DNA of 50,090 nucleotides from Betaproteobacteria bacterium (lineage in GTDB: Bacteria; Pseudomonadota; Gammaproteobacteria; Burkholderiales; Thiobacillaceae), in NCBI GenBank assembly GCA_020061585.1, contig JAGUXX010000317.1, positions 1 to 50,090 of the forward strand. Direction: 5' to 3'. The first letter of the stretch is position 1. The number at the start of each line of letters is the position of its first letter. The notes under the pieces were generated by a model. That model was given only the letters and a program-made list of their open reading frames with translations, made no database searches and was not told the DNA's origin. The translations under genes were made by a program, and so were the position numbers. Positions 9,441 to 40,506 of this stretch are shown here, piece by piece.

Positions 9441-10862
9441 TCACTTGTGGGCAACGTCCAGCTTGTCGACGGTGTCGAACTCGAACTTGATCTCCTTCCA
9501 GGTTTCCATGGCGATCTTCAGTTCCGGGCTGTGCGTGGCGGCGGCGGTCAGGATGTCCTTGCCTTCCTTCTCGATGGCGCGGCCCTGGTTGCGAGCTTCC
9601 ACACAGGCTTCCAGCGCGACGCGGTTGGCGGCGGCGCCGGCCGCGTTGCCCCACGGGTGACCCAGCGTACCGCCACCAAACTGCAGAACCGAGTCATCGC
9701 CGAAGATGGAAACCAGCGCCGGCATGTGCCAGACGTGGATACCACCGGAAGCAACCGGGATCACGCCGGGCATGGAACCCCAGTCCTGATCAAAGAACAG
9801 GCCGCGCGAACGATCTTCCGGAATGAAGCTGTCGCGCATGGTGTCGATCCAGCCCAGGGTGGCTTCGCGGTCGCCTTCCAGCTTGCCGACGACGGTACCG
9901 GAGTGCAGGTGGTCGCCACCGGACAGACGCAGCACCTTGGTCAGCACGCGGAAGTGAATACCGTGGTGCGGGTTGCGGTCGAGCACGGCGTGCATGGCGC
10001 GGTGGATGTGCAGCAGCATGCCGTTGTTGCGACACCAGTTGGCCAGGCCGGTATTGGCCGTCAGACCGCCGGTCAGGTAGTCGTGCATGATGATCGGCGC
10101 GCCGATTTCCTTGGCGAATTCGGCCCGCTTGTACATCTCTTCCGGGGTCGGCGCGGTGACGTTCAGGTAGTGGCCCTTGCGCTCGCCGGTTTCGCGTTCG
10201 GCCTTCAGGGTGGCTTCGTGCACGAAGGCGAAACGGTCACGCCAACGCATGAACGGCTGGCTGTTGACGTTCTCGTCGTCCTTGGTGAAGTCCAGACCGC
10301 CGCGCAGGCACTCGTAAACGGCGCGGCCGTAGTTTTTGGCGGACAGACCCAGTTTCGGCTTGATGGTGCAGCCCAGCAGCGGACGGCCATACTTGTTCAT
10401 GCGGTCGCGCTCGACCTGGATGCCGGCCGGCGGGCCGCCGCAGGTCTTGACGTAGGCGATGGGGAAGCGCACATCTTCCAGGCGCAGGGCGCGCAGCGCC
10501 TTGAAGCCGAACACGTTGCCGACCAGCGAGGTCAGCACGTTGACCACGGAACCTTCTTCGAACAGGTCGATCGGGTAAGCCACGAAGGCGTAGAAACAGG
10601 TGTCGTCACCAGGCACGTCTTCGATGCGATAGGCGCGGCCCTTGTAGTAATCCAGGTCGGTCAGCAGGTCGGTCCACACCGTGGTCCAGGTGCCGGTTGA
10701 AGACTCGGCGGCAACGGCGGCGGCGACTTCTTCACGATCCACGCCGGGCTGCGGGGTGATCTTGAAGCAGGCCAGGATGTCGGTATCCAGCGGGGTGTAA
10801 TCCGGGGTCCAGTAGGTCTGGCGGTATTCTTTGACGCCAGCGTTGTAGGTCTTCACAGCCAT
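9441..10862 (-). CDS. cbbL: RuBisCO form IA large subunit
   Basis: This is the catalytic large subunit of ribulose-1,5-bisphosphate carboxylase, which fixes CO2 in the Calvin cycle. The 473 residues start at ATG 10862 with AAGGAG upstream. The active-site motif [12 protein letters not shown] carries the carbamylated lysine and its metal-binding Asp/Glu. [11 protein letters not shown] supplies the other catalytic lysine, [17 protein letters not shown] forms loop 6 with its lysine, and [10 protein letters not shown] and [11 protein letters not shown] bind phosphate. All key residues are present. It heads a minus-strand operon with cbbS, cbbQ and cbbO. Its upstream region is shared with a divergent NTPase gene rather than with cbbR, which now lies about 7 kb away. 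Confidence 0.99.
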
Positions 10863-26366: not shown

Positions 26367-26725
26367 GGGGCGCTTCCCGCGCAGTGTTCGATGAAGCCAC
26401 GCTGGGAATGCCTGTGGATATTCACAGCTTCGGGTTGATGTGACCAGCCGCGCGAATCTGAAGTACGGCTTGCAAGCGCATCAGGTTCCAGTTCCCGATC
26501 AGCGACGCGGACAGCGTCCGCCCAGCATCCTTGCATCGAGCCAACCCGGCGACGTTCAACCCCTACCCAGAATCTTTCGTGTCAAGCGCTGAGTTGCCGC
26601 GTCAGGTGCATCGGGGCTGTTGCAAAACTCATGTCTTGCAATCGCGAAATTCAGCTTATTGCAATTTCCACTCGCCTGAAACCGGTGAATTTTTCTATCT
26701 ACATGTTTTAAAAGAATAATTTTGT
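26367..26725. other. Gene-free stretch upstream of the sulfur locus
   Basis: I see no convincing gene in these 359 bases. The minus-strand frame that ends in INPKL and a stop near 26440 could be a decayed transposase or phage-gene tail, and GGGGCTGTTGCAAAACTCAT near 26613-26632 looks like the tip of some insertion sequences, but neither is firm. From about 26620 the DNA becomes A+T-rich with three TTGCAA boxes (26620, 26636, 26659) and AATCGCGAAATT at 26640-26651. Given the sigma-54 promoter just downstream, this is a reasonable place for activator-binding sites. Confidence 0.5.
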
Positions 26726-26741
26726 TGGCATGCAACATGCT
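26726..26741 (+). promoter_or_regulatory. Sigma-54 promoter P1
   Basis: TGGCATGCAACATGCT fits the sigma-54 consensus TGGCACG-N4-TTGCA with the invariant GG (26727-26728) and GC (26739-26740) exactly ten bases apart. The transcription start would be near 26752, ahead of the first sulfur gene. It overlaps any start codon earlier than 26788 and so argues for the ATG at 26788. A sigma-54 activator is encoded at the end of the locus. Confidence 0.85.
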
Positions 26742-26787
26742 AAACAAGTTGTGTCGGGGATCAGGCGGGGGGCGAACCTTGGGATTG

Positions 26788-27093
26788 ATGGATCTTTTTT
26801 TTGATCGTCGTCGCAATTCGGGTGGCCGTGTTGTGCGCGAGATAGAAATAACCGGTCTGGGCAGGGTTGCGCTGGTGAGATCTGTCGATTGCATAGGTGC
26901 CATGTGTCCGCGCCCGCAACTTCTGACGCTGAAAGTGATGGGCGAAGTGCGAGTAGGCGATGTTGTGGAAGTGCTGTCGGACAACCCGAGCGCGGTAGAG
27001 GGTTTTCCCGCACTGGCTCAGGCATTGAATTGTGAGCATCTGGCAACTCAACGTGAGTCGGGTTATTGGCGCATGTATCTGCGTAAGCAATGA
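26788..27093 (+). CDS. TusA/SirA-like sulfur-carrier protein
   Basis: This small cytosolic sulfurtransferase-type carrier of 101 residues starts at ATG 26788 (MDLFFDRRRN); earlier TTG starts would lie inside the sigma-54 promoter. The core motif DCIGAMCPRPQ holds the CPxP cysteine that carries persulfide sulfur in TusA proteins, followed by the usual alpha/beta fold (VLSDNPSAVEGFPALAQALNC). The basic N-terminal extension of about 25 residues is not typical. It leads an operon with a YeeE-type transporter, so it probably accepts sulfur from the imported species. A second TusA-like gene lies just after the transporter. Confidence 0.85.
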   Translation: MDLFFDRRRNSGGRVVREIEITGLGRVALVRSVDCIGAMCPRPQLLTLKVMGEVRVGDVVEVLSDNPSAVEGFPALAQALNCEHLATQRESGYWRMYLRKQ

Positions 27094-27157
27094 CGCCGTT
27101 TTGGCGTGTCGTGAATCGCGAAATTGTAATGATGGAATTTCACAGAGGGTGATTACG

Positions 27158-28588
27158 GTGACGGAAAGTTCCAATGTGCTGATGCAAAAAGGCAGTCTGA
27201 AGGCGATGGGGGTTTTGCTGTTCGTGATAGCCGGCTCGCTTTGGGCGTTGTCAATCGATACGCGTTTCTTGTATTTGCTGGTCTATGTCTGGTTTGGTGT
27301 CATCTACGGCATGTTTTTGCAATACGGTCGTTTCTGCATGGCCTCGGCGGTGCGCGACCTGTTCGCGGTGAAGGTGCCGCGCATGGCGGTGGGCATGATG
27401 ATCGCGGTGGCGTTGTATTCCATCGTCGCCGCCATCGTCACTTTGAGCGGATTCAGTACCTTCCATTCCAATGCCATGGGGTGGCATGTAGTGATTGGCG
27501 GCGCCATTTTCGGTTTCGGCATCGTGTTCACCGGTGGCTGCGCTTCCGGTTCCCTGTACAAGACCGGCGAGGGCAACATGAACTCGCTGCTGGTGGTGCT
27601 GTCGATCTCGTTTGCCCAGGCCATCATCGTCAGTGCTTCCGGATGGTGGGACTCGCTGGTGCCGCAATCCTGGATCGATTCGGCCGTAGCCAAGGACATG
27701 CCGGCAGAGTTGTCAGTCACCCAGGGTTGGTTCGATATCTTTACCGCCGGCTATGTCTGGGATCTCAAGGGCGCAACCACGGCGGAAATGTTCGGTTGGG
27801 CCGATACGACATTCGGCATCGTGGTACTCAATACCTTGCTGACCGCAATACTGCCGGTCGCGATCCTGCTGGTCCTGCTGTACGCCTTCTATTACAGAAA
27901 GGGCTACCTGCGCCGCTCCGGCAAGACCGCCTTGAGCATGGGCGAGGAAATGGCCGGCATGTGGGCGATGTGCACCTCTTCCAAGAATACCGCGCTGGCC
28001 GGCATCGGCCTGGGCATCTTCGCCGGCCTGCACATGTATGTCACCGGTGTGCTGCGCGAGTACTACGGCATCATGAACTTCGGCGAAATGCTGGTGGCGA
28101 TGGGGTATACCAATGGCCTCTCGCTGCAGGAGACGGTATTCGATCCAGGCTACTGGTACATCACCACCCAGGAAGCTCAATGGGGCGGCTGGGTGATGCA
28201 GCAGTTGGGCGTCAACACCATGGACAACATCTTTTTCGGCCTTGAGAACGGTTTGCCCAATCCGCTGCTGAATGCGCCCGGCTTCATGTCCATCGGCATC
28301 ATCTTCGGCGCTGCGGTGATGGCGCTGTCACGGCGTGAATTCAAATGGAAGCTGCCGAACTGGGAATCCGCCATCTTCGCCATCGTCGGCGGCATTCTGA
28401 TGGGCTTGGGCGCGCGGATCGGTATGGGCTGCAACATCGGCGCCTTCTTCGCCACGGTAACCAACGGCGATCCCAGCGGCTGGGTATTCCTGTTCGGCAT
28501 GGTGATTGGTGCGTATGTCGGCGTGAAGGCATTTACCAAATGGATGGACTGGAATGCATCACGCAATTCATCCGGCTGCGATCTGTAA
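27158..28588 (+). CDS. YeeE/YedE (TsuA-type) thiosulfate/sulfur transporter
   Basis: This polytopic inner-membrane protein has two YeeE-type halves. The preferred start is GTG 27158, with GAGGG about nine bases upstream; ATG 27182 is an alternative. It has about 476 residues and 10 or more membrane segments. The three cysteine motifs seen in thiosulfate transporter YeeE/TsuA are present: QYGRFCMAS (Cys60), GGCASG (Cys128) and GMGCNIG (Cys425). In that family the cysteines form a relay that hands thiosulfate across the membrane. Flanking TusA-like genes match the known YeeE-YeeD (TsuA-TsuB) partnership. The central loop (about residues 250-300, with RRSGKTALSMGEEMAG) is longer than in short YeeE proteins. 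Substrate assignment is by family. Confidence 0.88.
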   Translation: MTESSNVLMQKGSLKAMGVLLFVIAGSLWALSIDTRFLYLLVYVWFGVIYGMFLQYGRFCMASAVRDLFAVKVPRMAVGMMIAVALYSIVAAIVTLSGFSTFHSNAMGWHVVIGGAIFGFGIVFTGGCASGSLYKTGEGNMNSLLVVLSISFAQAIIVSASGWWDSLVPQSWIDSAVAKDMPAELSVTQGWFDIFTAGYVWDLKGATTAEMFGWADTTFGIVVLNTLLTAILPVAILLVLLYAFYYRKGYLRRSGKTALSMGEEMAGMWAMCTSSKNTALAGIGLGIFAGLHMYVTGVLREYYGIMNFGEMLVAMGYTNGLSLQETVFDPGYWYITTQEAQWGGWVMQQLGVNTMDNIFFGLENGLPNPLLNAPGFMSIGIIFGAAVMALSRREFKWKLPNWESAIFAIVGGILMGLGARIGMGCNIGAFFATVTNGDPSGWVFLFGMVIGAYVGVKAFTKWMDWNASRNSSGCDL

Positions 28589-28627
28589 TCGCGGTTGACA
28601 CGTCAATAAGCAAACAAGGAGCTGATC

Positions 28628-28879
28628 ATGGCAATGAGTTTCAACAAAACCGCTGATGGGGAATGGAAGCTGGACGTATGTGGCTATACCTGCCCGCACC
28701 CGCAGATGTACACCAAGAAAGCGCTGCAGAAGATGGACAGTGGCGATGTGCTGACTTTGGTATTCGACAACCCCTCATCCGGTGAATCGATCCTCGCCAT
28801 GTGCGATGCGGAGGGCAACGACCTGATCGATCGCCAGGAAAGTGGCGGATCTTCGGTCTGGAAAATCAAGAAGGCCTGA
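28628..28879 (+). CDS. TusA/TsuB-like sulfur-carrier protein
   Basis: This 83-residue TusA-fold protein starts at ATG 28628 with AAGGAG upstream. The motif DVCGYTCPHPQMYTKKAL has the CPxP cysteine plus an extra cysteine four residues before it. In YeeD/TsuB proteins, which accept and split thiosulfate delivered by YeeE/TsuA, such a cysteine pair is used for the reaction. It follows the transporter by 39 bp and precedes the DsrE-like genes by three, so coupling is tight. It is distinct in sequence from the TusA-like protein at 26788. Confidence 0.88.
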   Translation: MAMSFNKTADGEWKLDVCGYTCPHPQMYTKKALQKMDSGDVLTLVFDNPSSGESILAMCDAEGNDLIDRQESGGSSVWKIKKA

Positions 28880-28882
28880 ACC

Positions 28883-29194
28883 ATGCGGCTCGGAATCGTG
28901 ATCACTGACGAGAGCTACCTCTCTGTTGCCAACCGTCTGCTGGATGCGGCTGGCGGGCGTGGTTGGGAAACCCTGTGTTTTCTGACCGACACCGGCGTCA
29001 ACCTGTTGGCCGACGCGGGTTTCGTGGAACGCGCCAAGGCTTGTCCGAACAGCATTTCGCTCTGTGAGCACAGCGCCGCGCGATATGGCGAAGGTCGTTT
29101 TGATTTGCACGCCTTGGGGGATGTGGTGATTGTCGGTGGGCAATACCAGGATGCCGAACTGGTGCGCAAGTGCGATCAAGTGCTGGTGTTTTAA
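28883..29194 (+). CDS. DsrE-like sulfur-relay protein
   Basis: This 103-residue protein with a Rossmann-like DsrE fold (MRLGIVITDE start, then ANRLLDAAGGRGW and VVIVGGQYQDAELV) begins three bases after the preceding stop. DsrE-family proteins carry sulfur between TusA and other partners. Four cysteines are present (32, 54, 61, 97); Cys54 and Cys61 flank a loop in the middle (AKACPNSISLCEH) and are the best candidates for the sulfur-bearing residue. It lies in a run of three short DsrE/F/H-like genes. They are not close copies of the DsrEFH complex of the Dsr pathway, and no dsrAB genes are in the window. Confidence 0.75.
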   Translation: MRLGIVITDESYLSVANRLLDAAGGRGWETLCFLTDTGVNLLADAGFVERAKACPNSISLCEHSAARYGEGRFDLHALGDVVIVGGQYQDAELVRKCDQVLVF

Positions 29195-29203
29195 GGAACT
29201 GAA

Positions 29204-29464
29204 ATGGCGGAACAGAAACGGATTTTGATGCTGGCGTTGGACAAGCAAGTCGAGGCGTTGCGCATGGCCAGTGGTCTGACCTTGCTCGATGACGCGGTGA
29301 GCATCGCCACCTGGGGCAAATTGCCGGAGGGAGACGACGTGGCGGAGCAGATGGAAGCGCTCGAATTTTCGGAAGTGCCGGTGGTTGCGTTGGATCCCGC
29401 AACCGATGCTTTGGCCGTGTTGGCGCGCCAGATCGTCAATAACGATGTGGTGTTTTGCGTATGA
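29204..29464 (+). CDS. Small DsrE/DsrF-like protein
   Basis: This 86-residue protein (start ATG 29204, with AAGGAACTG upstream) has an alternating strand/helix pattern (KRILMLALDKQVEALRMASG, VSIATWGKL, VPVVALDPATDALAVL) that fits a shortened DsrE-type fold. Its only cysteine is the next-to-last residue (VFCV). A C-terminal cysteine is where DsrC and DsrH-like relay proteins place their sulfur-bearing residue. It overlaps the next gene by four bases (ATGA). Assignment to the DsrE superfamily is inferred from fold pattern and context. Confidence 0.65.
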   Translation: MAEQKRILMLALDKQVEALRMASGLTLLDDAVSIATWGKLPEGDDVAEQMEALEFSEVPVVALDPATDALAVLARQIVNNDVVFCV

Positions 29465-29643
29465 GCACGAGCAAAAAGGTGTTGCTGATCAATCCGTCGG
29501 ATATGCCGGTCATGACAGGCCTGGCCGATGCCCTGCGTAAGGAAGGCGCCCAAGTGCTGGAAATGCGGTTGGGTGATTACAACCTGTTGTTTGATGCCTT
29601 GGATCAAGGCTGGATGCCGGTGGTGTTGAAGTCGCCGGCCTGA
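29461..29643 (+). CDS. Very small DsrE/DsrH-like protein
   Basis: This 60-residue protein starts at ATG 29461, overlapping the previous stop, so the two genes are translationally coupled. It opens with a strand-helix unit (KKVLLINPSDMPVMTGLADALRKEGA in pieces), then EMRLGDYNLLFDALDQGW and ends VVLKSPA. No cysteine is present, so it cannot itself carry persulfide and may be a structural subunit of a complex with the two preceding proteins. It is the last gene of the cytosolic sulfur set; 150 bp follow before the rhodanese gene. Confidence 0.6.
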   Translation: MSTSKKVLLINPSDMPVMTGLADALRKEGAQVLEMRLGDYNLLFDALDQGWMPVVLKSPA

Positions 29644-29794
29644 TCAAGTTTGGCCCGCAGGCTTGGCTGCGGTGGCGGTTGCGCATGACTGAAACAAGCG
29701 GGATCTCCTGTTCTGTTCAGTGGGCCAGCCATTAATAGGCGCGTCGCCGTTAGTCAGGGACGACGCGATCTTGAGTTTTGATGGAGGAGTTACG

Positions 29795-31327
29795 ATGAAC
29801 ATGCGCATCAACAAAGTCTGGGCAAGTGCTTCCGCCCTGGTAATCGCTCTTGGACTGCACGGTTGCGGTGGCGGCGGTGGAGAAGATTCGACATCCACGG
29901 CTAGTCAGTTGTCGGTGAATACACCGGCGCAAATTGCCCAGGCTTCCGCCGCCAACTACGACGACAACGTCAACGGCTTGATCTCGGGCGGCACATTGAA
30001 GCGCTGGAAGGATGATTGGGTAACCGAGCGGGCAAATCTCGGTTTGACCGGGAAATTGATCATTTTTCAGTTAACGGCTGGGCCGGCGGGATCCGAATAC
30101 ATCAAGCCCAACGGCACCACGGTATTTACTTATTTGTCGCCATCGAGTGAGTGGGTCCAGACACGTTCCAATGGCGTTATTGAATCCCAAAGCATGGTGC
30201 CGGATGGGGCGCAGATGGATGGCCTGATGAAGAAATACAACATTGATCCACGTAACGACATGATAGTCGTGGCCATGGGGACTGGCAGCAATCCGAACGC
30301 GATGGGCCAAGGTCGTATCTGGTATGCCCTGCGCTACTGGGGTGTGGACCAGAAAAATCTGGCGCTGGTCAATGGTGGCAATCAGTGGCTGGATGACACC
30401 AGCATGACGCCTCTGGCGGACTTCCAGGCTTCCGCGAGCGTGGCGCCCGAATCCGGCACCTTCTCGGTCAAGAATCTGGCTGTAGACAACACCCAACTGC
30501 AAGCCACGGTGGAAGATATGCTGCGCGTGCTGCCCTCCACTGATGCCAACGTCACCAATGACGGCGTGCTGATCTGGGATGCGCGCAGCATGGGCCAGTA
30601 CAGTGCCGGACAATTGGTCGAGTTCGGTGAAGACAGCGATACCGATACCACGGGGACGCAGGCCTGTGCGACGGGATACTGCGCGCCAGCCAATCCCGAC
30701 AACTACATGCAAACCTTTCAGAACGGCGGCGCTCGTCAAGGGCACCCGAACGGTACGTTGCAGGTGCAATACACGCACTTTCTGGATCCCCTCAAGGGTT
30801 ACAGCTATCGCCCGAAGGCATTCCTGGAGAAATTGTTGAATGGCTATGTCACCACGGCGCAGGACGTCACTGACGGCAATGCAACCGTGGCCGGGGTCGG
30901 CTTTGTCGACAGCTCCTATGGTTTGCTGGGCGAAGGCAACGCTTATCAGCCGGGCGATACCTTGTATGTTTATTGCGAAACCACCTTCCGGGCCATGATT
31001 ACCGGCGTAACCGCCGCAGTGATCCTCGGCAAGCCCACCCGCTTCTACGACGGCGCGATGGTTGAATGGCATTCCCTGACCTACACCACCGACTTGAACG
31101 GCGACACGATCCTGCCCAGCAATTCGCCATGGCGTACCGATCTGGTCTCGTTCTTCCGGCCGGCAACCAGCAACACCCTGGTCAATCCGCGCACGATAAC
31201 CAATGCCTATGCGTCCTCGACCAACGCAGTGATTAGCGCTGACAAAGCCTACAAAACCGGCGAAAGCGTGACTTCCGGCGGCGGCAGCGGTGGTGGCGGC
31301 GCGCCGTCGAATCCTTGCGGTGGCTAA
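29795..31327 (+). CDS. Secreted lipoprotein with rhodanese (sulfurtransferase) domain
   Basis: This is a 510-residue rhodanese-type protein exported as a lipoprotein. The start is ATG 29795 with GGAGGAG upstream. A signal peptide ends at a lipobox-like LGLHGC, followed by a glycine linker. A full-length tandem rhodanese layout follows, with an inactive first domain (IIVVAMGTGSNPNAMGQGRIWYALRYWG region) and an active C-terminal domain with the loop YCETTFRA (catalytic Cys394, CxxxxR form). GGG-rich tails flank both ends. It would move sulfane sulfur, for example from thiosulfate or polysulfide, at the outer face of the periplasm or the cell surface. Rhodanese lipoproteins beside multiheme cytochromes are known in extracellular electron-transfer loci of Geobacter; here the next gene is a pentaheme lipoprotein. 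Confidence 0.88.
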   Translation: MNMRINKVWASASALVIALGLHGCGGGGGEDSTSTASQLSVNTPAQIAQASAANYDDNVNGLISGGTLKRWKDDWVTERANLGLTGKLIIFQLTAGPAGSEYIKPNGTTVFTYLSPSSEWVQTRSNGVIESQSMVPDGAQMDGLMKKYNIDPRNDMIVVAMGTGSNPNAMGQGRIWYALRYWGVDQKNLALVNGGNQWLDDTSMTPLADFQASASVAPESGTFSVKNLAVDNTQLQATVEDMLRVLPSTDANVTNDGVLIWDARSMGQYSAGQLVEFGEDSDTDTTGTQACATGYCAPANPDNYMQTFQNGGARQGHPNGTLQVQYTHFLDPLKGYSYRPKAFLEKLLNGYVTTAQDVTDGNATVAGVGFVDSSYGLLGEGNAYQPGDTLYVYCETTFRAMITGVTAAVILGKPTRFYDGAMVEWHSLTYTTDLNGDTILPSNSPWRTDLVSFFRPATSNTLVNPRTITNAYASSTNAVISADKAYKTGESVTSGGGSGGGGAPSNPCGG

Positions 31328-31355
31328 TGCCTGATTGATGTTGTTGCATACTCCG

Positions 31356-31388
31356 CGGCCCACGTGTTTTGCGTGGGCCGTTTTTATT
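31356..31388 (+). terminator. Intrinsic terminator between rhodanese and pentaheme cytochrome
   Basis: CGGCCCACG (31356-31364) and CGTGGGCCG (31372-31380) form a perfect 9-bp stem with a 7-base loop, followed by TTTTTATT. It lies 28 bp after the rhodanese stop and only about ten bases before the next start codon. It either ends the sulfur transcript or sets read-through into the cytochrome gene. Confidence 0.9.
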
Positions 31389-31398
31389 GGTGACTGGC

Positions 31399-32745
31399 AT
31401 GGCCGACTCGATTGATCCATTCTTGCGTCGCCGCGCGCTGTTATTGCTTGCGGCGGCTCTGCTCGTCGGCTGCGGTGAAGCATCCAAGCCCGCGCCGCCG
31501 GTTGCGCAGGATTTTCTGACCCGCCATTGGGAAGATCCGCTGCCGCCGCAAGGCGCGCCGCCGACATCCTTTTCGGCGCTGGAGGCTTCGCTCAGTCCCG
31601 CCAGTTGCGGTCAATGCCATGCCGAGCAGTTCGAGGCCTGGCAAACCAGCCTGCATAGCAAAGCGGTGGGCGCGGGGTTGTTGTGGCAGTTGCAGCTGAT
31701 GAATCAGGATCAGGGCAATCGCTGCCTGCGTTGTCATGCGCCGTTGGCGGAACAAAAAGCGCTGTTGGCGCTTGAGCTGGGCTGGCCCAACGCCCCTAAA
31801 CAAGCGCCGCCGGAATATGTCAGCGCCGATCTGGCGCATCGCGGTCTGGTCTGTGCCGCCTGCCATATACGCGAGCATCGGCGGTTTGGCCCGCCGGCGC
31901 GCGGCAGAGTCGTCAGCGGCGGCGTTGCCGCCGATGGTTCGCGTGTTGAATCGGCGACCGCCACGGCGTCACGCGACGGCACCGACCGATCGACCAACAA
32001 TCCGTATGCCCCGCATGGCGGCTTCACCATCGCGCCGGCGTTTCAGGACAGCCGATTCTGCGCACATTGCCATCAGTTCCCCGAAGAGGGTCCGCGCATT
32101 GCCGGCAAGTTGCAGGAAGACACCTATCAGCAATGGCTGGGCAGCGCCTTTGCGCTTGAGGGACCGGGCAAGCGGACTTGTCAGGGCTGCCACATGCCGG
32201 ATCGGCGGCACCTGTGGCGCGGTATTCATGACCGGGAAATGACCCGAAGCGCGCTGGATATCGATTTGCAACTGATCGATCTCGGCGATGGTCGTCATGA
32301 GGCGCGGGCGACGCTGCGCAACAGCGGCGCAGGCCATCATTTCCCGACCTACATGGTGCCCAAGGTGGAAGTGCAATTGGTGCGGATTGATGCACGCGGA
32401 GGCGAACTTATGTTGGCCAGCCACATCATCGGTTGGCAGGTTGATACCGGCATCACCCGCGAGATAGCCGATACCCGTCTGGCGGCGGGAGAGACTCGCG
32501 AATACCGGCTAGCCATGCAGGCGCCGGCCAGTGGCGATTGGCGGGTGGAATTGATCATCCGCGTCGCGCCTGCGGAACATTACGAGCGGATCTACAGCGA
32601 CAGCCTGACCAGGGTCAGCCAGTTTCCCGCCGCGGTCGAGCCGGTGTTGCGCAAGGCGCTGCGGGAGGCGCGGGCCACGCGTTACGAACTGGCGCGGATG
32701 GCGGCGCGCCCACAAGGCCGAGCAGCAGCGGCGATTGCAAATTGA
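31399..32745 (+). CDS. Pentaheme c-type cytochrome lipoprotein
   Basis: This exported electron-transfer protein has 448 residues. The start ATG 31399 (MADSIDPFLRRRALLLL) is chosen because it gives a clean lipoprotein signal (LLVGC, Cys25) and an earlier TTG lies inside the terminator. Five CxxCH heme sites are present, at residues 70-74, 109-113, 152-156, 221-225 and 261-265, in a cytochrome c554-like first half. The C-terminal 170 residues are heme-free and beta-rich (GDGRHEARATLRNSGAGHHFPTYM in pieces), as in several outer-surface cytochromes. The partners are the rhodanese lipoprotein upstream and the triheme cytochrome and porin downstream. It may pass electrons from sulfur oxidation, or to or from the outside; direction and substrate are unknown. 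Confidence 0.92.
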   Translation: MADSIDPFLRRRALLLLAAALLVGCGEASKPAPPVAQDFLTRHWEDPLPPQGAPPTSFSALEASLSPASCGQCHAEQFEAWQTSLHSKAVGAGLLWQLQLMNQDQGNRCLRCHAPLAEQKALLALELGWPNAPKQAPPEYVSADLAHRGLVCAACHIREHRRFGPPARGRVVSGGVAADGSRVESATATASRDGTDRSTNNPYAPHGGFTIAPAFQDSRFCAHCHQFPEEGPRIAGKLQEDTYQQWLGSAFALEGPGKRTCQGCHMPDRRHLWRGIHDREMTRSALDIDLQLIDLGDGRHEARATLRNSGAGHHFPTYMVPKVEVQLVRIDARGGELMLASHIIGWQVDTGITREIADTRLAAGETREYRLAMQAPASGDWRVELIIRVAPAEHYERIYSDSLTRVSQFPAAVEPVLRKALREARATRYELARMAARPQGRAAAAIAN

Positions 32746-32831
32746 AAGATTGCGCGGCGCACGACTTGTCATGCAATTGCATCACATCAGCTCGATTTCA
32801 TAACTTGTTGATTATTAGTGCTTGTTCAAGG

Positions 32832-32847
32832 TGGCATGAGTTGTGCT
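32832..32847 (+). promoter_or_regulatory. Sigma-54 promoter P2
   Basis: TGGCATGAGTTGTGCT has GG (32833-32834) and GC (32845-32846) exactly ten bases apart and the same TGGCATG-N5-TGCT form as P1. Transcription would start near 32858, just ahead of the small CxC protein at 32870. About 50 bp upstream is the palindrome ATGCAATTGCAT (32771-32782), and ATTGCAA occurs at 32734; an ATTGCAA box also precedes P1. Confidence 0.85.
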
Positions 32848-32869
32848 TTAGAAGGTTGGTCCTACACCG

Positions 32870-33157
32870 ATGCACACACGAAACATGCTGTCCTATCACC
32901 ATTCAATCGTCTTGATGCTTATCGCCATGCTGGTCGTGGTGAATGTGCGGGCGGCTGAGCCGGGTCAGCCCAGGCTGAAGTTTCGGGGTAAGGGGCCAGT
33001 GTGTTCCTGTGCAACCGGTATGGGCGAGGAAGACATCCGCAAGGCATGGGAAGCGCGTTTTGCGCAACCCGAAATGAACCGCCCCGAGTCCTCGGATCGG
33101 CGTACCACACCCAGCGATGAGCAGAGGAGAGAGAACGATGAATTGCAGGCAAAGTAA
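32870..33157 (+). CDS. Small periplasmic CxC protein of unknown function
   Basis: This 95-residue exported protein has a start at ATG 32870 or 32885 and a typical signal peptide (HSIVLMLIAMLVVVNVRA with AEPG after the likely cut). The mature part has a compact motif GPVCSCATGMGEEDIRKAW (Cys45 and Cys47) followed by a charged, probably disordered tail. I do not recognise a family. A CxC pair could bind a metal, a heme edge or a persulfide. It is the first gene after sigma-54 promoter P2 and overlaps the triheme cytochrome gene by 20 bases, so it is produced together with that cytochrome and the porin. Confidence 0.75.
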   Translation: MHTRNMLSYHHSIVLMLIAMLVVVNVRAAEPGQPRLKFRGKGPVCSCATGMGEEDIRKAWEARFAQPEMNRPESSDRRTTPSDEQRRENDELQAK

Positions 33158-33641
33158 GCGTGGTTTATTTGGAAGGTTGTTGCGGGGCGGTGTATTGCTC
33201 TCGGTGCTGGGTATGGGTGTCGCATTGTTGGTCGATCTGACTGGCAAGCCGGCGGATTCGATAGCGCAAGGTCCGGCTGCGGGTTGGGGCGCCGAAGCCA
33301 CTTCAGTGATGGCGGTCGGGCTTACGCAGTTGTCGCCGATTTCGCTGGCCAATGCCTGCGGCATGGGCGCGTCGAGCTGTTTCCGCTGCCACAACGGCAA
33401 GCGTGCCGCCGCGCCGGATATGGATAAGTCCAAGTCGCCCTGGCACCAGCAACATGCCAAGGTCAACAACTCCTGTGTGGGTTGTCACAAGGGCAATGCC
33501 CGCATCATGAAGGAAGACTTGGCGCACAAGAATATGTTGGCCAAGCCACGAGACAACACGGCTGACGCATGCGCCAGCTGCCATAAGAGCGACCTGGCCA
33601 AAGTGCAAGGCGCTTACCACGCCACCGCAGGAGCCAAGTGA
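33138..33641 (+). CDS. Membrane-anchored triheme c-type cytochrome
   Basis: This 167-residue cytochrome starts at ATG 33138, chosen because GAGGAGAG lies just upstream; an ATG at 33117 is in frame but lacks such a site. One membrane segment at about residues 17-34 (GGVLLSVLGMGVALLV) probably remains as an anchor. Three CxxCH sites follow: CFRCH (81-85), CVGCH (113-117) and CASCH (145-149). Several extra histidines (WHQQH, LAHKN, YHATAG) could be distal heme ligands. It overlaps the CxC-protein gene and ends one base before the porin gene. It is a likely electron carrier between inner membrane and envelope partners. Confidence 0.9.
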   Translation: MNCRQSKRGLFGRLLRGGVLLSVLGMGVALLVDLTGKPADSIAQGPAAGWGAEATSVMAVGLTQLSPISLANACGMGASSCFRCHNGKRAAAPDMDKSKSPWHQQHAKVNNSCVGCHKGNARIMKEDLAHKNMLAKPRDNTADACASCHKSDLAKVQGAYHATAGAK

Positions 33642-33642
33642 C

Positions 33643-34836
33643 ATGCAAAAACTCTCGAACAAGCCGCAATCCGCAAAGCCTTCGCGTCTGACCCTTCTAG
33701 CCTGTTGCGTCGCCGGCATGCTGCCGCTGGGTGCGGTGGCGGGGCCGACGTTCGATTTTGGCGACCAGGGTTCGATTACCTTGACTTACGCCCTGCAAGG
33801 CTGGCTGCAGCATAAGGGTTTCACTTCGGCGACCGATGACGGATCTTCGACCGACGCCTTTCTGCGCCGTAACCGCATCACCTTTTTCGGCCAGTACAAT
33901 GACTATGTCGGTTTCTATGCGCAACTTGAGGCAGGCAACGACAGCAAGCTCGGTCAGGACAACAAGAGCGTGTATTACCGCGACGCCTACGTGACGCTCG
34001 ATTACCGCGACGAATTGCGCTTCATCGTCGGCCGCTTCAAGAACACCTTTTCGCGCGAGAATCTTGAAGCCTGCCTTGAGCCGCTGACCATGGATCGCGC
34101 CGAAGTGCTGTCCTACACCCCGTATGGCGGCAGCCGCGATACCGGCTTGGCGATCTGGGGCAATCTGATGGATGCCAAGCTGCAATATCGACTGATGATC
34201 GCCGATGGCCGCGAGGGCGATAATGTCGCCGAGGACAATCCGCGTCTGACCGCGCGGGTGCATTACAGCTTGTGGGATGTCGAGCCGGACTATGGTTATC
34301 TGGGCACCTATCTGGGTACCAAGAAAGTGCTGACCGTCGGTGCCGCGATGGACAGGCAGGAAGGCGTTGCCTATGCCAACTTCCCGGCGCGTAGTGATAT
34401 TCAGGATTACACCGCCAAGACGGTCGATGTGTTCATGGAGTTGCCGACGGCGAGCGGTGTCTATACCGTGTCCGCGGCTCACTTCGACTATGACACCGGT
34501 AATGCGTTCGGACAGTCGCCGGATCCGGACCTGGCGGTGAATTCCGATTTGAAGGGTTACTACGTAAAAGCCGGTTATATGCTGCCAAACAAGGTCGGCC
34601 CGGGTCGTTTGCAGTTCTTTGCCCGACATGAGAACTCGGATTACACCGCGAAAACCGGCAATATCGAGTATTACGATCAGTCTTGGAACGGTATCGGCGC
34701 CAACTACTACCTGGATGGTCAGAAATTGAAGATCAGTTTCGAATATGCCAAGGTGGCTTTCGACAACGAGCATCCGACCAACCCCGCTTTGCAGGATTAC
34801 AATCAAGCCACACTCGGCTTGCAGTTGATTTTCTGA
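33643..34836 (+). CDS. Outer-membrane porin (OprO/P-like)
   Basis: This 397-residue beta-barrel protein starts at ATG 33643, one base after the triheme stop. A signal peptide (LTLLACCVAGMLPLGAVA) precedes a series of amphipathic strands (RNRITFFGQYNDYVGFYAQLEAG, YYRDAYVTLDYRDELRFIVGRFKNTF in pieces). The last residue is Phe (LGLQLIF), the sorting signal for barrel assembly. The layout matches phosphate-selective-type porins, which pass anions, so thiosulfate or another sulfur oxyanion could be the solute. Porins next to multiheme cytochromes can alternatively house electron conduits, but nothing here resembles MtrB. Confidence 0.88.
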   Translation: MQKLSNKPQSAKPSRLTLLACCVAGMLPLGAVAGPTFDFGDQGSITLTYALQGWLQHKGFTSATDDGSSTDAFLRRNRITFFGQYNDYVGFYAQLEAGNDSKLGQDNKSVYYRDAYVTLDYRDELRFIVGRFKNTFSRENLEACLEPLTMDRAEVLSYTPYGGSRDTGLAIWGNLMDAKLQYRLMIADGREGDNVAEDNPRLTARVHYSLWDVEPDYGYLGTYLGTKKVLTVGAAMDRQEGVAYANFPARSDIQDYTAKTVDVFMELPTASGVYTVSAAHFDYDTGNAFGQSPDPDLAVNSDLKGYYVKAGYMLPNKVGPGRLQFFARHENSDYTAKTGNIEYYDQSWNGIGANYYLDGQKLKISFEYAKVAFDNEHPTNPALQDYNQATLGLQLIF

Positions 34837-34842
34837 ACGTCG

Positions 34843-34860
34843 GCGTCAAAGCGACGCCGT
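34843..34860 (+). terminator. Hairpin after the porin gene
   Basis: GGCGTC and GACGCC form a 6-bp stem (extended by flanking C/G) with a 5-base loop, nine bases after the porin stop. There is no T-run, so read-through into the kinase gene is likely. Confidence 0.45.
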
Positions 34861-34904
34861 GATGGTTGTCGCTTAGAGGATTCGGTATTTCATTTCTGTC
34901 GTAC

Positions 34905-36350
34905 ATGGGGGCGTCCAGACGGAACGCCCCCAATTTCATTCCACTTCCAGGCAGGTTACTGCTGCTTGCAGTGTTGATCCTGAGCGGTCTGATATACGCC
35001 TTGCTCGGTGCATACTGGCATAAGCAGGGCGCGTTGTGGATCGTCGGCACCTTGCTGATCTGCTATCTGGGCTATCTGTTTGTGCGTCTGCTGGCCGAGT
35101 TGGCCGCGCTCAGGCGTCTGGAGCAGGGCATCCACAATGCACGCGAGGGGCTGCTGGAGCCGACACGCATCGAGCCTTTGGGCTGGACATATGTCGGCCG
35201 ACTGATTGCCGAATACAACACCACCATATCGACCCTGCGCCTGATGTTTCGCACCGTCGAGGAATGCCAGGTACGCTTTCTGACCGAACGTAACCGTGGC
35301 AATACGATATTGCAAAGTTTGCCTGGGGCGCTGTTGAGCTTGGCGGACGACTTGCGGGTGACCATAGCCAATCGTCAGGCCGAACTGCTGTTCGATAGCG
35401 AGCCCGGTCAACTGGCGGGTGCTAATTTGTTTGATTTTCTGCACCTCAACGAACGCGATCGAGAAATTCTGCGCGATGCGTTTCTCTACAAAAGTGCGAT
35501 CCGCAGCCAGGAAATTTCACTACAGGTTGGGGCCAATATTCGCTATTTTTCGTTGAATCTGGGTTTTTTCAGCGATGAAGAAAACGACCTGGGTGGTGTG
35601 CTGATATTGCAGGACATCACCGATTATCGCGATCTGATGGAAAGCGTTGCGATGCGCGAGAAGCTGGTGGCGATGGGGCAGTTGGCGGCGGGCGTGGCAC
35701 ACGAACTGAATACCCCACTGGGCAATATTCTCGGTTACGCACAGTTGCTGGAACGCGGTACTGTCGATTTGCCCAAGATGTCAGGTTATTCCCGCATCAT
35801 CACCGAGGAAATTCAGCGCTGTTCGCGGGTGGTCCAGGATTTGCTCAGTTTCGCCCGCAAGGATCAGTGCAGCGGCGAAACCTGTGACCTGAACCAGTTG
35901 GTGCAGGAGTTGATCGAAACCTTTATCAACTGCCGCCTGAAACGCTACCAGATCGAAGTGCGACTGGAGCTGGCCCCGGGTAGTTTGGTGGTTGAGGGTG
36001 CTTGCGGTCAGCTCGATATCGTGTTGACCAATCTGTTGATCAACGCCATCCATGCGCTGGACAAACGCGCTGATCCGGTCATCGTGATCAATACCCGTTT
36101 TGAAGCGCCTTATGCGCTGATCAGTGTCTCGGACAACGGACCGGGCGTGCCGTCGGAAATCCGCAAACGGCTGTTCGACCCGTTCTTTTCCACCAAGGAA
36201 GTCGGCCAAGGCAGCGGGCTTGGATTGTCGATCAGCAATGCCATCGTCGCCAAACGTGGCGGCTTCATTGCTTACGACAGCGAATACAACACCGGTGCGC
36301 GATTTATCGTCAAACTGCCGGCGGTTGATCTGAATCGAACCAAACCATGA
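34905..36350 (+). CDS. Membrane sensor histidine kinase (NtrB-like)
   Basis: This sensor kinase of about 481 residues pairs with the following sigma-54 activator. The start is uncertain: ATG 34905 (MGASRRNAPN) is preferred, but a TTG at 34866 is in frame. Two membrane segments near the N-terminus enclose almost no periplasmic loop (LLLLAVLILSGLIYALLG and WIVGTLLICYLGYLFV), so it may sense a membrane or cytosolic signal. A HAMP-like helix and a PAS domain (QSLPGALLSLADDLRV onward) follow. The H-box is GVAHELNTPLGN with His266, and the ATPase domain has N, G1 and G2 boxes (NLLINAIHAL, SDNGPGVP, GSGLGLSI). Its stop overlaps the regulator start. Confidence 0.93.
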   Translation: MGASRRNAPNFIPLPGRLLLLAVLILSGLIYALLGAYWHKQGALWIVGTLLICYLGYLFVRLLAELAALRRLEQGIHNAREGLLEPTRIEPLGWTYVGRLIAEYNTTISTLRLMFRTVEECQVRFLTERNRGNTILQSLPGALLSLADDLRVTIANRQAELLFDSEPGQLAGANLFDFLHLNERDREILRDAFLYKSAIRSQEISLQVGANIRYFSLNLGFFSDEENDLGGVLILQDITDYRDLMESVAMREKLVAMGQLAAGVAHELNTPLGNILGYAQLLERGTVDLPKMSGYSRIITEEIQRCSRVVQDLLSFARKDQCSGETCDLNQLVQELIETFINCRLKRYQIEVRLELAPGSLVVEGACGQLDIVLTNLLINAIHALDKRADPVIVINTRFEAPYALISVSDNGPGVPSEIRKRLFDPFFSTKEVGQGSGLGLSISNAIVAKRGGFIAYDSEYNTGARFIVKLPAVDLNRTKP

Positions 36351-37759
36351 AAACAGTCGCAGTGACCACACCCTCCCCGGAATCAAGCAAAAACAGCACC
36401 GGAGTGACCATATTGGTGACCGAGGATGACAAGAACATGCGCGAATTGATCATCGCTGTGCTGGCCGAATCCGACATGGATTTCGATGTTGCAAGCGCGG
36501 AAAACGCCCATGAAGCCATGGATTATCTGGAGAGCCATGATGTGGCGGTGGTGCTGACCGATCTGCGCATGCCCGGCGCTGACGGGCTGGATCTGCTGCG
36601 ATTCGTCAAATCGCGCGATGCCCTGGCGCAGGTCGTGCTGATCACTGGATATGCCACCGTCGATTCCGCCGTGGCGGCCCTGAAGGAGGGCGCTTACGAC
36701 TATGTGCAGAAGCCGTTTGATACCGTGAAGCTGCGCTGCGTGGTCGAGAAGGCGCTGAGTTTTTATCTGCTTTCCACCGAAAATCAGCGTTTGCGCTCGC
36801 AGCGCCGGGCGTATCAGGATGGCGGTGAAATCATCGGCCAGTCGCAAGCCAAGGATCGCGTCGATCGGCTGATCGCGGCTGCGGCAGCCTACGATTCCAG
36901 TGTGCTGATTTTTGGTGAAAGTGGCTGCGGCAAGGAACTGGTGGCGCGCCAGATCCATCTGCGCGGCAAGCGCCGCGACAAACAGTTCGTGGCCATCAAC
37001 TGCGCCGCGATCCCGGAAAACCTGATCGAAAGCGAGTTGTTCGGCTATCGCAAGGGCGCCTTTACCGGCGCCGAGCGCAACAAGCCTGGGCTGTTCGAAA
37101 TGGCTGACGGCGGCACCTTGTTTCTTGACGAGATCAACAATGCGCCGATGTCCTTGCAGGCCAAGCTGCTGCGCGTCGCCCAGGATGGCGGGTTCTATCC
37201 GATGGGCGCTACCGAGCCGATCAATGTCGATGTGCGGGTCATTGCCGCCAGCAATCGACCGATTCCGGAACTGGTCGAAAAAGGTTTGTTTCGCGAGGAT
37301 CTGTTCTATCGTCTTTCGGTCATGGAAATCACGGTGCCGCCGTTGCGCGAGCGACGCGAAGATATCGCCTTGCTGGCCTACTACTTTCTCAACAAGCATT
37401 CGCTGCGGCTGGAAAAGCATGTCGCCGGCGTCAGCACCGCCGCCTTGGGCGCGCTGATGCGCTACGACTGGCCGGGCAATGTGCGGGAACTGGAAAACGT
37501 GATTCAACGCATGATCATCCTCGCCGAGACGGACCACATCGACGCCGATCTGCTGCCGGCGCGCCTGAGTGAAGACAAGGACGTGCGCGGCCGGGCGCTG
37601 GACTATCTGCCGCCGCAAAGCCTGGACGAGGTAGAGGCCTACTTCATCCGCAAGACGCTGCGCGAGACGCACGGCGACCGTGCATTGGCGGCCGAGATAC
37701 TGGGTATCGACAAATCGACCTTGTGGCGCAAGGTCAAACGCTACGAAATCGAGGGCTGA
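36347..37759 (+). CDS. Sigma-54-dependent response regulator (NtrC family)
   Basis: This 470-residue activator overlaps the kinase gene by four bases (ATGA). The receiver domain holds the phosphoacceptor Asp72 (VVLTDLRMPG). The AAA+ domain has Walker A GESGCGKE, the sigma-54-contacting loop GAFTGA (237-242) and Walker B GTLFLDEIN. The C-terminal Fis-type helix-turn-helix (ALAAEILGIDKSTLWRKVKRY) binds enhancer DNA. All residues needed for activation are present. Two sigma-54 promoters in the same locus (26726 and 32832) are the natural targets, so this pair most likely switches on the sulfur/cytochrome genes in response to a sulfur or redox signal. Confidence 0.95.
   Translation: MKTVAVTTPSPESSKNSTGVTILVTEDDKNMRELIIAVLAESDMDFDVASAENAHEAMDYLESHDVAVVLTDLRMPGADGLDLLRFVKSRDALAQVVLITGYATVDSAVAALKEGAYDYVQKPFDTVKLRCVVEKALSFYLLSTENQRLRSQRRAYQDGGEIIGQSQAKDRVDRLIAAAAAYDSSVLIFGESGCGKELVARQIHLRGKRRDKQFVAINCAAIPENLIESELFGYRKGAFTGAERNKPGLFEMADGGTLFLDEINNAPMSLQAKLLRVAQDGGFYPMGATEPINVDVRVIAASNRPIPELVEKGLFREDLFYRLSVMEITVPPLRERREDIALLAYYFLNKHSLRLEKHVAGVSTAALGALMRYDWPGNVRELENVIQRMIILAETDHIDADLLPARLSEDKDVRGRALDYLPPQSLDEVEAYFIRKTLRETHGDRALAAEILGIDKSTLWRKVKRYEIEG

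Positions 37760-38658: not shown

Positions 38659-40506
<1,848 letters not shown>

Follow-up and report, generated by a model that had tools for sequence, protein, structure and literature searches.

A candidate sigma-54-controlled gene cassette linking an ExtI-type outer-membrane system to sulfur import genes in a member of Thiobacillaceae

The present study examined a stretch of DNA of 50,090 nucleotides (hereafter, the window) from a Betaproteobacteria bacterium of Thiobacillaceae (contig JAGUXX010000317.1 of assembly GCA_020061585.1), the genome of which is 93.5% complete. Open reading frame (ORF) calls placed thirteen consecutive genes on the plus strand between positions 26726 and 37759, in the order tusA, yeeE, tusA, three tiny genes, a rhodanese lipoprotein gene, a pentaheme lipoprotein gene, a gene for a protein with a CxC motif, a triheme cytochrome gene, a porin gene, and genes for an NtrB-type kinase and an NtrC-type regulator. 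We refer to this run as the cassette. An initial annotation, made from the sequence of the window, had placed all of these genes on this strand and between these positions, which was confirmed.

Gene content of the cassette

The features are listed below by window coordinates and strand.

26636 to 26671, plus: activator-like elements upstream of promoter 1 (TTGCAA at 26636 and 26659; best 14-base match to ATTGCAAWTTGMAA with 2 mismatches)
26726 to 26741, plus: putative sigma-54 promoter 1, -24/-12 sequence TGGCATGCAACATGCT, before the first tusA (pattern match)
26788 to 27093, plus: TusA-family sulfurtransferase 1 (PF01206, 61.5 bits; start codon uncertain)
27182 to 28588, plus: YeeE/YedE-family sulfur transporter (PF04143, 154 bits; start at 27182 or 27206)
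28634 to 28879, plus: TusA/YeeD-like protein 2 (PF01206, 61.5 bits; start at 28628 or 28634)
28883 to 29194, plus: DsrE-like subunit with invariant Cys32 and Cys61 (fold model, Foldseek, and Pfam matches in the family)
29204 to 29464, plus: second small gene, at the Chp1/DsrF position of the yeeE-tusA-dsrE (YTD; DsrEFH type II) cluster (synteny; family conserved)
29461 to 29643, plus: third small gene, at the Chp2/DsrH position of the YTD cluster (synteny only; family conserved)
29795 to 31327, plus: ExtH-like rhodanese lipoprotein (NF040901 ExtH, 74.3 bits, cut-off 200)
29864 to 29866, 30974 to 30991, and 31316 to 31318, plus: lipobox Cys, CETTFR loop, and Cys of the terminal NPCGG of the ExtH-like protein
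31355 to 31381, plus: terminator-like stem-loop in the gap between extH and the pentaheme gene (consensus match only)
31399 to 32745, plus: pentaheme c-type cytochrome with a lipoprotein signal (five CxxCH; LVGC lipobox; distant ExtKL relative)
32732 to 32756, plus: activator-like site CGATTGCAAATTGAAAGATTGCGCG upstream of promoter 2, overlapping the pentaheme stop codon, 75 bp before promoter 2
32832 to 32847, plus: putative sigma-54 promoter 2, TGGCATGAGTTGTGCT, before the CxC gene (pattern match)
32870 to 33157, plus: small exported CxC protein (start at 32870 or 32885)
33138 to 33641, plus: triheme c-type cytochrome (three CxxCH; N-terminal hydrophobic segment; extra invariant Cys in a NACGxGASSCFxCH-type motif)
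33643 to 34836, plus: ExtI outer-membrane porin (NF040900, 345.4 bits, curated cut-off 150)
34905 to 36350, plus: NtrB-type sensor kinase (PAS, HisKA, and HATPase domains; two closely spaced membrane segments; start at 34866 or 34905)
35868, 35883, and 35931 (within 35868 to 35933), plus: Cys triad of the kinase, C-x4-C-x15-C, between the dimerisation and ATPase domains
36347 to 37759, plus: NtrC-type sigma-54 activator (receiver, AAA+ with GAFTGA, Fis helix-turn-helix)

In the sulfur import half, the two TusA-like proteins and the YeeE/TsuA-type transporter with three cysteine motifs agreed with the initial annotation. The transporter motifs GRFC, GGCASG, and GCNIG aligned with TsuA of Spirochaeta thermophila (PDB 6leo), and the three transport cysteines of the TsuA thiosulfate transporter are present. 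These residues, Cys102, Cys170, and Cys467, were invariant in 52/52 aligned homologues; residue numbers for YeeE, ExtH, the triheme cytochrome, and the kinase follow the longest ORF, and the cysteine-conservation counts for these proteins and the pentaheme protein leave out ORFs below the length filters. YeeE did not reach the TsuA equivalog cut-offs (103.5 bits vs 400, and 91.4 vs 645).

Three tiny DsrE-like proteins had also been annotated. The assignment held for the first, whereas the other two, taken by themselves, gave no confirmation of it. The AlphaFold2 model of the first (mean predicted local distance difference test score [pLDDT] of 89.5) had as its top five Foldseek matches 3pnx (DsrE, two chains), 2pd2 (hypothetical), 2hy5 chain C (DsrEFH), and 2qs7 (DsrE/DsrF-like), with E-values of 3e-3 to 8e-2 and none at or below 0.001. 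Ten of its 19 family members matched Pfam DsrE at E up to 1 (best, 3.9e-5); the window copy had no Pfam match. Cys61 was invariant in 19/19 and probably corresponds to Cys67 of type II DsrE. The second small protein gave an alpha/beta model (pLDDT 92), with no DsrF among the 50 Foldseek matches listed, and a PDB profile search with its family and with the DsrE-like family returned nothing useful. The second and third small genes are named after DsrF and DsrH by synteny only.

The rhodanese lipoprotein was likewise recovered: it has a lipobox, a CETTFR loop of the C-x4-R type, and a Pfam Rhodanese match (E 2.3e-4; 22.0 bits vs a cut-off of 22.2). It scored below the ExtH equivalog cut-off (74.3 bits vs 200), but is still homologous (E 9e-21). 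The loop Cys419 and the C-terminal Cys533 were present in 51/51 homologues, and the lipobox Cys in 98%. N-x-C-G or N-x-C-G-G formed the end of all 53 ExtH ORFs with an intact C-terminus, a count that leaves out ORFs shorter than 330 amino acids, ORFs running off the stretch, and broken ORFs (in the loci L085 and L064, and one of L089). One left-out fragment each of L064 and L085 also ended in NPCGG. The tail follows a Gly/Ser-rich linker with a median length of 18 residues and a mean of 81% Gly/Ser/Thr/Pro/Ala/Asp (54 ORFs in which it was delimitable). A CG or CGG end was otherwise rare, occurring in 14/3434 other ORFs of at least 100 amino acids in the same stretches and in 0/679 other cassette-family ORFs. 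The C-terminal arm of SoxY is a sulfur carrier, and SoxY of this genome ends in VTIGGCGG; the SoxY model TIGR04488 matched four places in a whole-genome search, none on the window contig. We speculate from this resemblance, which is not homology, that the ExtH tail may be a sulfur-carrying arm. In metagenome-assembled genome (MAG) loci L064, L085, and L089, extH is broken into two or three ORFs, by sequencing error or decay.

The protein annotated simply as a porin is a porin, but not a generic one, as it exceeded the curated ExtI cut-off. No relative of ExtI was found on viral contigs. The heme and lipobox motifs of the pentaheme lipoprotein, the triheme cytochrome, and the CxC protein were present as annotated. 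The pentaheme protein scored below the cut-off of the ExtKL equivalog, a pentaheme protein that is a selenoprotein in some (NF040886, 51.5 bits vs 250), kept its lipobox Cys in only 60% of 55 homologues, and weakly matched PDB 9wt8 (MccSep). The CxC motif was conserved in 60/61 homologues, and the window protein had no family in Pfam or NCBIfam. We considered whether it is ExtJ and rejected this assignment: four CxC homologues scanned gave no match to NCBIfam ExtJ. The extra Cys81 of the triheme cytochrome was invariant in 61/61.

The kinase and regulator form an NtrB/NtrC-like pair, as annotated, with GAFTGA in the regulator. In the kinase, Cys335 and Cys356 were present in 55/55 homologues and Cys340 in 98%. 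This triad may serve as a redox, metal, or persulfide sensor.

Linkage and control sites across genomes

A pattern scan of 84,980 species genomes with the ExtI alignment, followed by tblastn confirmation, yielded 64 ExtI loci, two of which (L066 and L087) belong to one genome. All are from Pseudomonadota by record title, most are named as beta- or gammaproteobacteria, and Thiobacillus, Thiohalobacter, Thioalkalivibrio, and Thiogranum are frequent among them. The carriers are for the most part sulfur oxidizers. Linkage was counted in the 43 loci in which the flanks of extI extend at least 7.5 kb upstream and 3.2 kb downstream, and the 21 shorter loci were set aside; presence meant a match anywhere in the fetched stretch, and order and adjacency were read separately.

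The genes for YeeE, TusA, ExtH, the pentaheme protein, the CxC protein, and the triheme cytochrome were present in 43/43. The initial annotation had named separate occurrence of the cytochrome and sulfur halves as an outcome that would refute it; every locus with enough flank carried both. Both regulator genes and the first and second small genes were present in 38/43, and all eleven counted families in 37/43. Five reordered loci (variant B: L067, L073, L081, L082, and L083, from Cellvibrio, a gammaproteobacterial MAG, Rubrivivax gelatinosus, and two Solimonas) lack the regulators and the small trio, and no sigma-54 site precedes their CxC gene. In L050 and L058, the sulfur half is inverted and the core is retained. 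Since the linkage survives both reordering and inversion, chance adjacency is disfavoured.

In an even sample of 370 members of the class, ExtI exceeded its cut-off in 11 genomes, including this one; L111, L115, and L117 of this sample are the same DNA as L084, L065, and L049 of the 64. The NtrB/NtrC pair stood beside extI in nine of the ten other loci (all except L109), and a gene of the sulfur half lay within the stretch in seven, the stretches of L109, L111, and L114 not reaching one. The distribution of ExtI is patchy: a search of relatives, comprising 61 genomes, found it in seven, namely, this genome and six others.

The sigma-54 pattern TGGCAYRNNNNNTGCW occurs twice in the window, both times inside the cassette. 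The chance expectation is a mean of 0.38, and the window alone is weak evidence because two occurrences were reached in 9/100 shuffles. The sites become convincing because they are conserved across genomes. At a score of at least 13, a promoter 1 site was found before the first tusA in 35/45 loci (7.4% of shuffles) and a promoter 2 site before the CxC gene in 53/60 (7.0% of shuffles), with weights assigned manually according to the sigma-54 consensus (maximum score, 15.7) and with single-base shuffles. Elsewhere, sites of this score preceded the pentaheme gene in 10/55 loci and extI in 8/63, two of the eight being the distant porins of L024 and L025. A recount at a score of at least 14.5 gave 34/60 for the CxC gene, 0/55 for the pentaheme gene, and 2/63 for extI. 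The seven loci without a promoter 2 site are the five regulator-less loci, L038, and L057. The regulators and this site therefore go together, with the site in 53/55 loci with regulators and 0/5 without.

A third site before extH, absent from the window, reached a score of at least 13 in 20/54 loci and at least 14.5 in 13/54 (0.3% of shuffles); at the higher score, it was mostly in loci named as gammaproteobacterial. Strong third sites were seen in L042, L043, L045, L048, L049, L050, L051, L055, and others. Sigma-54 control therefore appears to differ between loci. Separately, the distant ExtI-like porins of L024 (genome G041) and L025 (G033) fall under the ExtI cut-off and have a strong sigma-54 site upstream; no CxxCH ORF was among those listed in the surrounding 19 kb.

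Upstream of the promoters, TTGCAA was present in 77/84 windows (10 expected) and ATTGCA in 83/84 (17 expected) by a k-mer count covering windows with a sigma-54 score of at least 13. A palindrome search for the activator site gave weak results; plain k-mers succeeded. A fitted 25-base site with the core ATTGCAAWTTGMAA ended 74-78 bp before the sigma-54 site in 47/51 promoter 2 windows, and 46-65 or 85-97 bp before it at promoter 1; this model was scored on the same 84 windows on which it was fitted, and the loci share ancestry. Because this upstream site is common to them, both promoters look like targets of one activator. Thus, the sigma-54 and two-component control proposed in the initial annotation is supported by conserved sites, and the NtrC-type activator, the -24/-12 promoters, and the shared upstream site together place the cassette in a predicted sigma-54/NtrC regulon. 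The shared upstream site, the NPCGG tail of ExtH, and the Cys triad of the kinase had not been described in that annotation.

Across this genome, TTGCA combined with the sigma-54 pattern occurred at 12 places vs one for a reversed control, and three of the 12 are in the cassette. One place, with TTGCAA, lies directly before soxA-soxX (L119, G000:C44, 4022-4126), and a similar pattern lies approximately 0.6 kb upstream of a SulP-type sulfate permease gene (L127, G000:C242, 29123-29214). We did not retain a shared sox regulon beyond a lead: in 27 other genomes, a stricter pattern gave 11 places outside the cassette, at which the ORFs were read (one more, in G076, was left out), and no downstream CxxCH ORF was listed, and hence no soxAX.

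The flanking genes appear to be unrelated to the cassette. The upstream neighbour is presumably glycogen phosphorylase. Downstream, a minus-strand gene without a Pfam match is followed by a plus-strand gene (38659 to 40506) for a fusion of a caspase and an FGE-sulfatase-type domain, with a CsgG-like gene next. No tRNA gene was found within the 50 kb window. A gene for the RuBisCO large chain lies at 9441 to 10862 on the minus strand, which suggests an autotrophic host.

Hosts of the cassette and related systems

Host metabolism was assessed in 36 genomes, namely, those of 35 of the 64 loci and this one; 32 carry variant A, with regulators beside extI, and four carry variant B. DsrA, counted by presence regardless of the oxidative or reductive type, was over the cut-off in 28/32 variant A genomes (plus one fragment) and 0/4 variant B genomes. 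The corresponding numbers for SoxB were 27/32 (plus one partial) and 0/4. In the class sample, dsrA was present in 8/10 ExtI genomes (this one left out) vs 115/359 genomes without ExtI (one-sided Fisher test, p 0.003). In Thiohalobacter thiocyanaticus Hrh1, the genome of L048, a TusD/DsrE-model protein over the cut-off lies approximately 1.3 kb after dsrA (G077:C2:31632-34526); the genome paper describes dsrEFH as absent from this strain (PMC6504805).

The cassette resembles extHIJKL(MNOPQS) of Geobacter sulfurreducens in its ExtI porin, rhodanese lipoprotein ExtH, pentaheme relative of ExtKL, and small exported protein. However, its ExtH and ExtKL fall far under their cut-offs, and no scanned cassette protein exceeded those of ExtM, N, O, P, Q, or S, for which the only matches were sub-threshold and came from heme proteins. 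The Geobacter cluster extHIJKLMNOPQS is described as encoding a number of other cytochromes together with a Rieske protein and cytochrome b (PMC5877670, PMC6148476). It has a LysR-type regulator (PMC6148476), whereas the cassette has NtrB/NtrC and sigma-54 sites. The cassette adds YeeE, two TusA, and the DsrE-like trio to the ext-type genes; TusA does not appear in the main text of PMC6148476, nor do TusA and YeeE in PMC5877670.

The import half resembles the YTD or DsrEFH type II cluster of cable bacteria, Desulfobacterota, and Nitrospirota, with yeeE, tusA, a dsrE-like gene, and two small genes adjacent and in the same order, following the layout defined in PMC13047784 and PMC13293266. A DsrE fold with a conserved cysteine, the mark of DsrEFH type II, was found in the cassette (Foldseek E 3e-3 and weaker), a DsrE cysteine being kept. 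DsrEFH type II is reported to be a sulfur transferase in vitro, and one of its subtypes, 21% of which is from Pseudomonadota, occurs more often with oxidative dsrAB (PMC13293266). In contrast to YTD, the cassette copy sits within an ext-type system of the outer membrane that includes cytochromes and a dedicated two-component system; PMC13293266 contains none of the words porin, multiheme, and rhodanese.

A three-cysteine YeeE transporter with a TusA-like partner is also found in SoxT1A/SoxT1B and TsuA-TsuB, and the YeeE-like SoxT1A is reported to deliver sulfur for oxidation (PMC11582611). Unlike these pairs, the cassette has a dedicated outer-membrane and cytochrome half. ExtH shares the Cys-Gly-Gly end with SoxY, but is a rhodanese-family lipoprotein without a SoxY domain match. 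The barrel and multiheme cytochromes recall the OmbB-OmaB-OmcB and MtrCAB conduits. However, porin-cytochrome conduits combine an outer-surface multiheme cytochrome with a periplasmic partner of 8-10 hemes, whereas the cassette cytochromes have 5 and 3 hemes, accompanied by a rhodanese and by no decaheme partner.

The initial annotation knew of no described system with this exact set. Among the papers listed in a search of the literature outside preprints and most subscription papers, we also found none joining the ext half to the YTD half; however, each half is known separately, as Geobacter ext and as YTD/DsrEFH type II. On the evidence of gene order and predicted sites, the cassette unites an ext-type system of the outer membrane with an import system resembling YTD/DsrEFH type II, the two being connected by linkage and apparently by shared control sites.

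Proposed role in the import of sulfane sulfur

In the initial annotation, a sulfur oxyanion or polysulfide would enter through the porin and be split by the surface or periplasmic rhodanese, electrons would leave via the hemes, and YeeE would import sulfur for TusA/DsrE; the present results support that interpretation in part, as regards the conserved unit and its control. We favour, with a probability of roughly 0.6, the reading that the cassette is one sigma-54-controlled system that brings extracellular sulfane sulfur into the cytoplasm. The substrate would be sulfur in the zero-valent state, for example polysulfide, colloidal sulfur, or sulfur derived from thiosulfate. ExtI would act as an outer-membrane channel or anchor, while ExtH would load sulfur on its catalytic Cys and hand it over via a flexible C-terminal arm tipped with Cys. 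Thiol/persulfide exchange may involve the CxC protein and the extra Cys of the triheme cytochrome, with the pentaheme and triheme cytochromes balancing electrons. YeeE would then carry sulfur across the inner membrane, and the two TusA and the DsrE-like trio would deliver it to a Dsr pathway run oxidatively. The kinase may sense sulfane sulfur or the redox state, probably via its Cys triad, and together with the NtrC-type regulator would activate both promoters by way of the upstream site that they have in common.

Several observations weigh against this proposal. A good promoter 1 site is missing from 10/45 loci. YeeE reached 154.7 bits on a selenium-named YedE model (cut-off 350), higher than its 103.5 bits on TsuA. 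The Geobacter extI mutant, the only mutant phenotype that we encountered for a relative of ExtI, is reported to reduce less selenite and tellurite (PMC5877670). According to PMC13293266, DsrEFH type II occurs mostly with reductive dsrAB (73.9%) and in 4.7% with the oxidative type. The dsrA test in the class sample treats genomes without correction for shared ancestry. A TusD/DsrE-model protein was over the cut-off in 30/36 cassette genomes, in 25 of which it shares a contig with dsrA, and the DsrE-like trio of the cassette is therefore a second set. Furthermore, since the four variant B hosts assessed are without soxB and dsrA, the core cannot serve Dsr-based oxidation alone; in these hosts it may perhaps serve another end, such as assimilation or protection.

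The reduction or detoxification of selenite or tellurite in the manner of Geobacter ext, with entry via ExtI, reduction at the hemes, and import or salvage of selenium by YeeE and TusA, appears unlikely to us. The porin is above the curated ExtI cut-off, ExtH and ExtKL have distant relatives in the cassette, the Geobacter extI mutant shows the phenotype cited above, and selenium-named models were the best match for YeeE and the first TusA, all under the cut-off. However, SelD was over the cut-off in 24/36 cassette genomes vs 51/61 in the relatives search, which itself included ExtI carriers, and none was over it in this genome, at its completeness of 93.5%. Variant A associates with dsrA and soxB, and a DsrE-like protein is linked. 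We rejected selenium utilisation as a general role because SelD was not enriched; detoxification would work without SelD. A porin-cytochrome conduit for electron transfer to metal oxides, an electrode, or sulfur particles, in which the sulfur genes supply a sulfur-based shuttle, is improbable: two multiheme cytochromes do adjoin an outer-membrane barrel, but the cassette encodes no large cytochrome, YeeE and TusA were linked in every testable locus, and most variant A hosts carry dsrA and soxB.

The yeeE-tusA-dsrE genes equal in layout the YTD cluster once proposed as a marker of sulfur disproportionation (PMC13047784), and, for Desulfobacterota and Nitrospirota, YTD is still ranked with the best candidates (PMC12998232). 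We nevertheless give a disproportionation module a very low probability. The cluster is described as poorly linked to disproportionation and as a sulfur transferase in vitro (PMC13293266), the complete YTD was confined to Desulfobacterota and Nitrospirota among the strains of PMC12998232, and SoxB was over the cut-off in most variant A genomes. We regard as least probable of all that two unrelated adjacent operons were spread together by horizontal transfer. The two promoter sites and terminator-like stem within the locus, the third sigma-54 site before extH in some loci, and the patchy distribution would fit such a history, but the linkage holds through reordering and inversion, and both promoters have the same kind of upstream site.

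Returning to the import of sulfane sulfur, we tentatively extend the proposal to the ExtH family as a whole, while considering the extension doubtful. Its members may be outer-membrane sulfurtransferases with a SoxY-like swinging arm, in which extracellular zero-valent sulfur would pass from the rhodanese Cys to the NPCGG Cys, through or beside ExtI, and on to YeeE and thiols in the periplasm. In that case, ExtI/ExtH systems in general, those of Geobacter included, would have sulfane sulfur as their native substrate, and selenite and tellurite would be substrates that resemble it.

The route by which extracellular sulfur reaches cytoplasmic oxidation is described as poorly understood (PMC11582611), and the uptake or transport system has been proposed to set which sulfur compound is used (PMC13293266). 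The cassette, which encodes a regulator of its own, is a concrete candidate for the whole route between the outer membrane and TusA/DsrE, and offers gene targets, promoter sites, and cysteines for mutation. It also suggests a new reading of Geobacter ext, the extI mutant of which is known for its selenite and tellurite phenotypes.

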